A DNA stretch of 26,598 bases from a virus, in the IMG/VR virus record IMGVR_UViG_3300021142_000157, positions 1 through 26,598 of that record. One strand, written 5' to 3'. Positions 18,354 through 20,714 of this stretch are shown here, one piece after another (positions within the stretch are counted from its first letter, which is position 1; each line of letters opens with the position of its first letter). The notes beneath the pieces are model-generated. The model did not search any database and was not told the origin of the DNA. It worked only from the letters and a program-made list of their open reading frames with translations. The translations under genes were made by a program, and so were the position numbers.

Positions 18354-18362
18354 GGGTTGAGC

Positions 18363-18701
18363 ATGAGATTGGTCACAGCAAATACTTGCAAGGCCGTCTA
18401 CGAAATGCTTTACCAGGTTCCCCCGTTCTGCAAGTGGAACCTACCACCGTCCGATGACATTGAGTTTGTCGTGATGCACGACCCGTCCTGTTATGGGATG
18501 TATGAACCGGAACACATCATCACGATCTCGAGCGCGAAGCATGGCCACCTAGATACGATTATCAGGACGATGGCTCACGAGATGATCCACCTGTACCAAT
18601 TCACCCGAAACAGGGGTGGCTGGAACATACACGGCGCGGTGTTCAACCGATACGCGCACAAGGTTTCTGAATCCTTGGGTTTTGACCCGAAGGAGCTTTA
18701 A
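18363..18701 (+). CDS. SprT-like zinc metallopeptidase
   Basis: 112 residues. The zinc motif HEMIH is inside IIRTMAHEMIHLYQF, with a downstream His in WNIHGAVFNRYAHKV, matching the compact catalytic core of SprT/WSS1-like peptidases. The rest has no recognised DNA-binding tail. SprT-like domains act on DNA-bound or structural proteins; the phage role is unknown. ATG 18363 is chosen (AGGGG nine bases upstream) over a TTG two codons earlier. The metallophosphoesterase gene starts at the base after its stop. Confidence 0.8.
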   Translation: MRLVTANTCKAVYEMLYQVPPFCKWNLPPSDDIEFVVMHDPSCYGMYEPEHIITISSAKHGHLDTIIRTMAHEMIHLYQFTRNRGGWNIHGAVFNRYAHKVSESLGFDPKEL

Positions 18702-20714
18702 GTGTCGCAAGCACCGCTATCCGACGAACAAGCATTAGAAGCCTACGCAGCATTACAGCGATTTGGCAGCAAGCGAGCGGCGGCTCAGGCGTTGGGAATA
18801 CAACGCTCGACAATGTCGAACCGCCTCAGAATATATGAGGAACGTAACCCGCAAAACGCAGAATTCAGCATTGCACCGATCCCCGAAGATGACATTGACA
18901 TTGAGGATTTGGTCAATCTGCGCATCAAGCAATTTGCCAAGAAGAAAGCCTACGAACAGGCAACTAAGCTGATCGAAGTCAAAGTAAAGATTTCCGGCCC
19001 AATCGGAATACTTCACTTTGGCGATCCGCACGTTGATGACGATGGCACGGATTTGGAACTGCTGCGCAAGCATAGTGACCTGACGCAGATAGAAGGCGTT
19101 TGGGGCGCAAACATCGGGGATACGACCAACAACTGGGTCGGACGATTGGCGAGGCTGTACGCCCAACAATCGACCTCTGCTAGTCAGGCGTGGAAGTTGG
19201 CAGAATGGTTCGTTGCGAGAACCCGCTGGATTTACATGATTGGGGGTAACCACGACTGCCACGACGCAGAAACGGAAGCCCTGACGAAACGTGGATGGGT
19301 TAAGTATGACCAGATTCGAAAGGATGACAAGGTTTTATCATTTGATCCCGAAACAGAATGCGCGGTTTGGGATGACATACAAAGCGTGATTGTCAGGGGG
19401 CATGACGGTGAAATGGTTGACATTAAGTGTCAATCGTTGGATGCAAGCGTTACACCTAATCATCGCATCTTGCACAAATCGCGAAATTGGAAGAAACAAT
19501 GGGGCGATTGGGGCTACGCGCAAGCCGGCAATTTGCCGCCCAGGTTTAAAGTCCCGGTAAGTGCGCAGATTCAGAATGAAGGGGTCGCACTGTCAGACGA
19601 TCAGATATCACTTGCCGGCTGGATTCTTACGGACGGTAGCATTTATCACAAGGGCAATAGCCCCAAGATAACCCTGTACCAAAGCAAGGATGGCGCGGAA
19701 ATAAATCGCCTTGTTTCTGCGCTTGATTTGACGGTGAGAAAGTCGGTTAGGGCGAGAAAGATCATGTCCGTTTGTGGGCGTGATCTTGTCAAGCCACCCA
19801 AAGATCAGCATGAATGGACATTTAATGCTGACTCATCCAGAAAAATTCTAGGATGGTTGCCAAGGAAAGGGATTCTTCCTGCCTGGACACACGATCTGAA
19901 TGAGCGGCAATTTTCAATTCTATTGGACGCGCTTGTGGCGGGTGACGGCACATGGGATGGTGTTAGCCCAAAAGACAAAAACGTCGCCGTTCTACATGGT
20001 ACGGAACAATTCTTGTCAAGCGTTCAGGCAGTCGCCGTGATGCACGGATGGAATGCTAGGCTTTCTGTAGCTCGGGAAAAGGATTACCGACTTAATCTGT
20101 GCAATCGGTCAACAATTCAGGCAGAGCGTGGAGTCGCAGTATCTAGACGCGAATACAAAGGGATTGTGTGGTGCTTGACGGTGCCACATAGCAACTTCAT
20201 GGTTCGCAGAAATGGCGCGGCGCATTTCTCTGGAAACTGTTGGGCCGGTGCTGCCGATCCTCTGAAATGGATAGCGAAACAGTCGGACACGCTTTACAAA
20301 GCTAGCGAATGCCGCATCAATCTGGCATTTCCGAACGGGCGCAGCGTCATCGTCAACGCTCGGCATGACTTCAGCGGATCGTCAATGTGGAATCCTGCTC
20401 ACGCGCAGATGAAGGCCGCGCAGCTTGGCTACCGCGACCATATCTCGGTGAGCGGTCACAAGCATTGCAGCGGGTACGGGGTCATCAAGGACGGCGGGAC
20501 AGGCAGGGTATGCCATGCGCTGCAAGTGGCCTCGTACAAATTGTACGATCACTACGCGAAGGAAAAGGGGTTCAGGGATCAGACGCTATCACCGGCCTGC
20601 ATGACCGTGATTAACCCTGAACTGGAAGAATCCCACCCCGACATGATCAAGGTTTTCTGGTCACCTGAAGAAGGCGTGGACTTTCTTAAATGGAAGCGCG
20701 GCAAAGGTTCGTGA
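18702..20714 (+). CDS. Metallophosphoesterase with N-terminal HTH, interrupted by intein
   Basis: 670 residues as encoded; 343 after removing the intein (residues 186-512). The N-terminal ~48 residues form a helix-turn-helix (SKRAAAQALGIQRSTMSNRL). The extein then shows calcineurin-like phosphoesterase motifs: GDPHVDD (107-113), NIGD (137-140), GNHD (182-185), NARHDFSG and SGHKHCSG near the C-terminus, all binding the two metals. It begins with GTG right after the SprT stop. Related HTH-phosphoesterase proteins occur in phages; their substrate is unknown. Activity probably depends on splicing, since the intein lies directly after the catalytic GNHD. Confidence 0.88.
   Translation: MSQAPLSDEQALEAYAALQRFGSKRAAAQALGIQRSTMSNRLRIYEERNPQNAEFSIAPIPEDDIDIEDLVNLRIKQFAKKKAYEQATKLIEVKVKISGPIGILHFGDPHVDDDGTDLELLRKHSDLTQIEGVWGANIGDTTNNWVGRLARLYAQQSTSASQAWKLAEWFVARTRWIYMIGGNHDCHDAETEALTKRGWVKYDQIRKDDKVLSFDPETECAVWDDIQSVIVRGHDGEMVDIKCQSLDASVTPNHRILHKSRNWKKQWGDWGYAQAGNLPPRFKVPVSAQIQNEGVALSDDQISLAGWILTDGSIYHKGNSPKITLYQSKDGAEINRLVSALDLTVRKSVRARKIMSVCGRDLVKPPKDQHEWTFNADSSRKILGWLPRKGILPAWTHDLNERQFSILLDALVAGDGTWDGVSPKDKNVAVLHGTEQFLSSVQAVAVMHGWNARLSVAREKDYRLNLCNRSTIQAERGVAVSRREYKGIVWCLTVPHSNFMVRRNGAAHFSGNCWAGAADPLKWIAKQSDTLYKASECRINLAFPNGRSVIVNARHDFSGSSMWNPAHAQMKAAQLGYRDHISVSGHKHCSGYGVIKDGGTGRVCHALQVASYKLYDHYAKEKGFRDQTLSPACMTVINPELEESHPDMIKVFWSPEEGVDFLKWKRGKGS
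19257..20237 (+). mobile_element. Intein with LAGLIDADG-type homing endonuclease
   Basis: 327 residues in frame, from Cys186 to Asn512 of the host ORF. Block A: CHDAETEALTKRGWV. Block B: VTPNHRIL (Thr251, His254). LAGLIDADG helices: LAGWILTDGS (304-313) and LLDALVAGDG (407-416). Block F: VWCLTVPHSNF. Block G: HFSGN, followed by +1 Cys (codon 20238-20240). The penultimate residue is Gly rather than the common His. Removal joins GGNHD to CWAG in frame. All main splicing residues are present, so splicing looks possible. Its base composition appears more AT-rich than the flanking extein, consistent with separate acquisition. Confidence 0.93.

Follow-up and report, generated by a model that had tools for sequence, protein, structure and literature searches.

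A predicted class-1 intein at the GNHD motif of a phage HTH-phosphoesterase, distantly related to the RDF intein of A1 mycobacteriophages

The host gene and its insert

The window analyzed here, the whole 26,598-nucleotide stretch of an IMG/VR virus record, contains one uninterrupted frame of 670 codons with a GTG start, which encodes an HTH-metallophosphoesterase split by an insert of 327 residues (Table 1). The ORF matched phrog_7339 of the PHROGs collection, annotated as "DNA repair exonuclease" (E value of 1.1e-38), and scored below the cut-off of the Pfam Metallophos model. The DxH, GD, GNH[D/E], H and GHxH motifs of calcineurin-like metallophosphoesterases were identified in the homologue alignments, and the corresponding fold was observed in the predicted structure of an intein-free homologue, L032 (pLDDT 84). 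Residues 87 to 333 of this model comprised the HTH-phosphoesterase core, and the nearest solved structure was DP1, the proofreading exonuclease subunit of archaeal DNA polymerase D (PolD; Z 17.6), followed by Mre11 (Z about 13). As modeled, the host resembles the DNA-exonuclease phosphoesterases PolD DP1 and Mre11.

Immediately upstream, a gene for an SprT-like metalloprotease (18357-18701; Pfam E value of 1.1e-6) directly adjoins the GTG start of the phosphoesterase, and the two may be co-translated. The window also encodes an S24/LexA-like repressor on the minus strand (1604-2311; Pfam E value of 1e-22), suggesting a temperate phage. No close relative of this phage at the DNA level was found in the phage collection.

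The insert comprises 981 nt (327 codons), from a Cys codon starting at 19257 to an Asn codon at 20235-20237, and is flanked by GGNHD upstream and by CWAG from 20238 downstream. The original prediction, made from the sequence alone, had given these boundaries right to the base, and the intein blocks A, B, F and G and the two LAGLIDADG helices that it had described were all located within the insert. The endonuclease was apparently intact, as had been claimed, with both D126 and D230 present; the position of Asp126 was occupied by D/E in all inteins found at the GNHD site. A tblastn search with the insert matched a phage intein with an E value of 6e-34 and covered all 327 residues. The standard Pfam and NCBIfam intein models gave only below-threshold matches (E values of 0.03-0.07), and automatic annotation would therefore overlook the insert.

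Table 1. Coordinates of the host gene, the insert and their motifs in the window
Feature	Position	Strand	Detail	Basis
Host ORF	18702..20714	+	HTH and calcineurin-like metallophosphoesterase, split by intein	phrog_7339; fold match of empty homologue
N-extein	18702..19256	+	185 aa, with HTH	Motifs conserved in homologue alignments
Motif I	19020-19043	+	GDPHVDDD; N-extein	Conserved in homologue alignments
Motif II	19116-19136	+	GDTTNNW; N-extein	Conserved in homologue alignments
Motif III	19242-19256	+	GGNHD; N-extein	Conserved in homologue alignments
Intein (predicted)	19257..20237	+	327 aa, Cys1 to Asn327	No counterpart in 104 homologues; same-site relatives; predicted structure
Block A	19257..19298	+	CHDAETEALTKRGW (C1...RGW); nucleophile Cys1	C1, T10 and G13 invariant in intein alignment
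Block B core	19449..19466	+	VTPNHR, residue 65; T66 and H69	T66 and H69 invariant in intein alignment
First LAGLIDADG helix	19611..19637	+	LAGWILTDG, residue 119; predicted catalytic Asp126	Model helix 114-126
Second LAGLIDADG helix	19920..19949	+	LLDALVAGDG, residue 222; predicted catalytic Asp230	Model helix 216-230; D230 invariant
Block F	20166..20183	+	VWCLTV, residue 304; Cys306 at F:4	C306 invariant in intein alignments
Block G and +1 residue	20220..20240	+	AHFSGN, residue 322; terminal Asn327, then C-extein +1 Cys	+1 Cys in 4/4 HTH-phosphoesterase carriers
C-extein	20238..20711	+	158 aa	Homologue alignment
Metal-site motif VNARHD	20364-20366 (His)	+	C-extein	Homologue alignment
Metal-site motif GHKH	20454-20465	+	C-extein	Homologue alignment

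Predicted fold and class of the insert

An AlphaFold2 model of the insert, built with six input sequences, had a mean pLDDT of 89.9. Its best matches in the PDB were full-length, endonuclease-bearing inteins, with residues 1-327 covered (Foldseek E value of 9.5e-16). Superposition on TliVMA (7qsu) gave a Z of 25.7 over 298 residues with an rmsd of 3.8 Å, and Z was 23.5 for PI-PfuI (1dq3) and about 21 for PI-SceI. Inteins and Hint domains also ranked top in a profile search of PDB sequences. The tblastn E value together with the structural match to full-length solved inteins excludes a chance match.

In keeping with class 1, the insert is cleanly bounded and in frame, has Cys1, T66 and H69, Asn327, a +1 Cys and a predicted Hint fold. 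The penultimate residue is Gly326, the His that is usual but not obligatory at this position in class 1 being absent. Each of the two predicted LAGLIDADG helices has an acidic end (D126 and D230), as in homing endonucleases of this family. A class 3 assignment was considered and rejected. Of the WCT triplet (B:12, F:4, G:5), the F:4 Cys is present in block F, but the triplet is incomplete, G:5 being Ser (FSGN) rather than Thr, and Cys1 is present. Since the position-1 nucleophile is there and the class 3 triplet is not complete, the insert was assigned to class 1. By its sequence and modeled fold it is very probably a large, endonuclease-bearing class-1 intein, from which we infer that it splices.

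Intein-free alleles of the host gene

When the exteins were joined at the protein level, the resulting 343 aa aligned end to end with intein-free homologues at 50-60% identity and without a gap at the junction, bearing out the proposal that removal of the insert leaves a continuous phosphoesterase. Intein-free alleles had been put forward as a check, and they were abundant: an insert at the GNHD site was found in 0 of the 104 homologues aligned across it, which came from IMG/VR, from bacterial genomes and from phages, contradicting the notion that the 327 residues are a normal domain of the family. Counts of the residue next to GNHD in these homologues were 46 for Leu, 44 for Ala, 10 for Met and 2 for Cys. 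Within the phage collection, the nearest homologue was a 338-residue protein of Pseudomonas phage IME307, in which the site reads GGNHDAWSG. A single scan of bacterial genome contigs produced 12 relatives, and none of those aligned across the GNHD site had an insert.

The precedent in A1 mycobacteriophages

The phosphoesterase/RDF of A1 mycobacteriophages carries an intein at exactly this site (GNHD^) with a Gly-Asn end (Kelley 2016, PMC5050341). In that study, the intein of the Bethlehem gp51 RDF (317 aa, penultimate G316) was demonstrated to splice, and to do so completely. It spliced well with the penultimate Gly, faster than with His, and badly when the Gly was changed to His; the endonuclease of this intein was toxic as long as it was not mutated (PMC5050341). 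Corvo gp52, annotated as a phosphoesterase, was used as a stand-in for Bethlehem gp51 in our sequence comparisons; it has a 317-residue intein exactly after GNHD with Cys1 and a Gly-Asn end. The assignment of the Corvo intein to the Bethlehem family rests on the description in PMC5050341 and on the agreement of Corvo with it in length and residues. An empty allele (GNHDL) was found in mycobacteriophage Bones.

The A1 RDF intein and that of the window share insertion after GNHD, Cys1, the Gly-Asn end and a LAGLIDADG endonuclease. They are also similar in size (317 versus 327 aa). They differ in the +1 residue (Ser in A1, Cys in the window), and the Corvo intein is only 32% identical to the window's. 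The host proteins also differ, as the A1 protein is a shorter RDF-type phosphoesterase of actinobacteriophages without the HTH found in the window host.

The Gly-Asn end was observed in 15 of 16 inteins compared, the remaining one, from a terminase, ending in Gly-Gln; these inteins were gathered by similarity, and the proportion is valid for that subfamily only. All four inteins of HTH-phosphoesterases end in Gly-Asn. The inteins of phage DNA methyltransferase, terminase, portal protein and ribonucleotide reductase share with the window's their architecture, the Cys of block F and a Gly-Asn terminus, but occupy other sites in other host proteins and are about 21-28% identical to it. The original prediction was correct in placing the intein immediately behind the catalytic GNHD motif of the phosphoesterase, but its view that this site and the Gly-Asn end are unusual did not hold, given that A1 mycobacteriophages share GNHD^, that related inteins commonly end in this way and that the Gly is functional in Bethlehem (PMC5050341). 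Neither feature is new, both having been published for A1 mycobacteriophages (PMC5050341), and the window intein adds a distant member to a known site-specific family; it is not a novel kind of element.

Further carriers at the same codon

Searching IMG/VR for DNA that fits a degenerate IGGNHDC pattern returned 26 stretches. In three of these, L140, L151 and L154, the encoded protein belongs to the same phosphoesterase family as the window's host and is interrupted by an intein at the identical codon; intein-free GGNHDCW alleles were also among the matches (e.g., L141, L142, L143, L149 and L155). The pattern demands Cys, and carriers with a +1 Ser or Thr, or without Ile two residues before Gly-Asn, lie outside its scope. 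What is new here is the presence of same-codon inteins in these three further uncultivated phages. Their inteins are 52-59% identical to that of the window and their exteins 48-58%. An intein-only search of viral contigs gave a single find, the terminase intein L027, and plasmids gave distant inteins only.

When 19 inteins from phages and plasmids were placed in a tree, those of the window, L140, L151, L154 and Corvo formed one clade (support 92/91), which was recovered in 92% of bootstrap trees; this support is moderate because the Corvo branch is long. Judged from the sequences, the window intein and the A1 RDF intein belong to the same allele family, sharing the insertion codon and common descent, with moderate clade support.

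A second tree was built from 48 host proteins, those with an intein being entered as protein-level fusions of their exteins. Carriers did not group in it: the neighbors of the window were empty alleles with Ala, those of L140 mostly had Leu, and L151 and L154 lay near IME307. Such scatter fits either repeated entry or an old presence followed by many losses. Within the host-tree clades of the window and L140, Cys after GNHD was confined to carriers (three of the four carriers having been found with the Cys-demanding pattern), suggesting that the Cys codon came with the intein or is a rare variant that permits entry.

Two other inteins were noted during these searches. In Rheinheimera phage barba_12-8E, a phosphoesterase annotated as a serine/threonine phosphatase (L028, 1255-2724) has an intein at GNH^C. 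Like that of the window, it lies in motif III and has a Gly-Asn end, but it is inserted one residue earlier, falls outside the GNHD-site clade, and has a host annotated only as a phosphatase. Phosphoesterase motif III has thus been invaded at two adjacent positions, by what seem to be different intein lineages. The terminase large subunit of an uncultivated phage (L026, 84-3551; L027, 468-1424) has a 319-residue intein with the Gly-Gln end, and further downstream in the same ORF is an apparent second Hint-like insert, which starts with CFIADTKISTIRGDK.

Upkeep of the endonuclease

Between carriers, synonymous differences were near saturation (pS 0.64-0.87) and nonsynonymous differences were 0.27-0.37, with the same picture for the splicing and endonuclease parts. 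Amino-acid identity was higher in the endonuclease part than in the splicing part in five of the six carrier pairs. The endonuclease has been maintained by selection, implying that homing went on through time. The original prediction of recent mobility was not upheld, as the nearest other carrier of the GNHD-site intein is just 59% identical; an endonuclease that is intact across this distance points to long-term, not necessarily recent, mobility. Neither the intein search of viral contigs nor the DNA search of the phage collection found a near-identical relative of the window, empty or filled. The GC3 of the intein is 0.50, compared with 0.58 and 0.68 for the exteins, but this was rejected as a sign of recent arrival since the evidence is weak, the L154 intein being GC-rich (GC3 of 0.86).

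Discussion

We propose that a 670-residue precursor would be translated from the host ORF, that Cys1 would attack the Asp185-Cys1 bond to form a thioester and that the N-extein would then be transferred to the +1 Cys (codon 20238-20240). Cyclization of Asn327 would release the intein, and the exteins would be ligated as GGNHD-CWAG to give a 343-residue HTH-phosphoesterase with a DNA-exonuclease-like metal-binding fold. Since the insert separates motif III from the other active-site elements, the precursor probably has no activity before splicing. Most likely, the endonuclease recognizes the GNHD codons of intein-free alleles together with the sequence on either side, and would during co-infection drive the transfer of an intein copy to alleles that lack one. 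Splicing, DNA cutting and homing in this phage are proposed from the conserved residues and the same-site relatives; Bethlehem gp51, the sole source of splicing data, has an intein about 30% identical to the window's.

The unbroken frame across 670 codons could equally be expected of an ordinary extra domain, but we give this reading practically no weight, as the 327 residues are missing from the 104 homologues, have relatives in unrelated proteins (methyltransferases, terminases, portal proteins and ribonucleotide reductases) and are predicted to adopt an intein fold along their whole length. It is also very improbable that the insert is a splicing-deficient remnant, either a domain that the phosphoesterase permanently retains or an element capable of cleavage only. 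Such a loss of function would be compatible with the missing penultimate His, but Gly is standard there in this subfamily, the other splicing residues are all intact, and the homologous Bethlehem intein splices completely (PMC5050341). A retained insert would, moreover, break an active-site motif that is invariant across homologues.

An intein that still splices but whose endonuclease is inactive, so that it is now inherited purely vertically, is a more serious alternative, albeit an unlikely one. It would agree with the failure of the searches for relatives to find a close pair of filled and empty alleles. Against it, both LAGLIDADG aspartates are present, the endonuclease part is conserved as much as the splicing part or more, and the host genes of the carriers are dispersed among empty alleles. 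A spliced intein with a working endonuclease remains our preferred reading, and the scatter of carriers among mostly Leu and Ala empty alleles fits long-term homing to one active-site motif.

More tentatively, a single intein lineage specialized on the GNHD codons at phosphoesterase active sites might move between phages of distant hosts (actinobacteriophages on one side, tailed phages infecting other bacteria on the other), the carrier proteins of which are alike in little besides the GNHD motif. By co-converting its own +1 Cys codon, it could invade recipients with Leu or Ala at this position, and it may keep an exonuclease-like phosphoesterase inactive until splicing.

The window intein is otherwise ordinary, though invisible to standard family models, and is of moderate interest in itself. 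Together with its relatives it shows that inteins recur at the phosphoesterase GNHD motif far outside the mycobacteriophages, and the four diverged, apparently intact inteins, together with many empty alleles, provide material on how inteins colonize genes that lack a +1 nucleophile.
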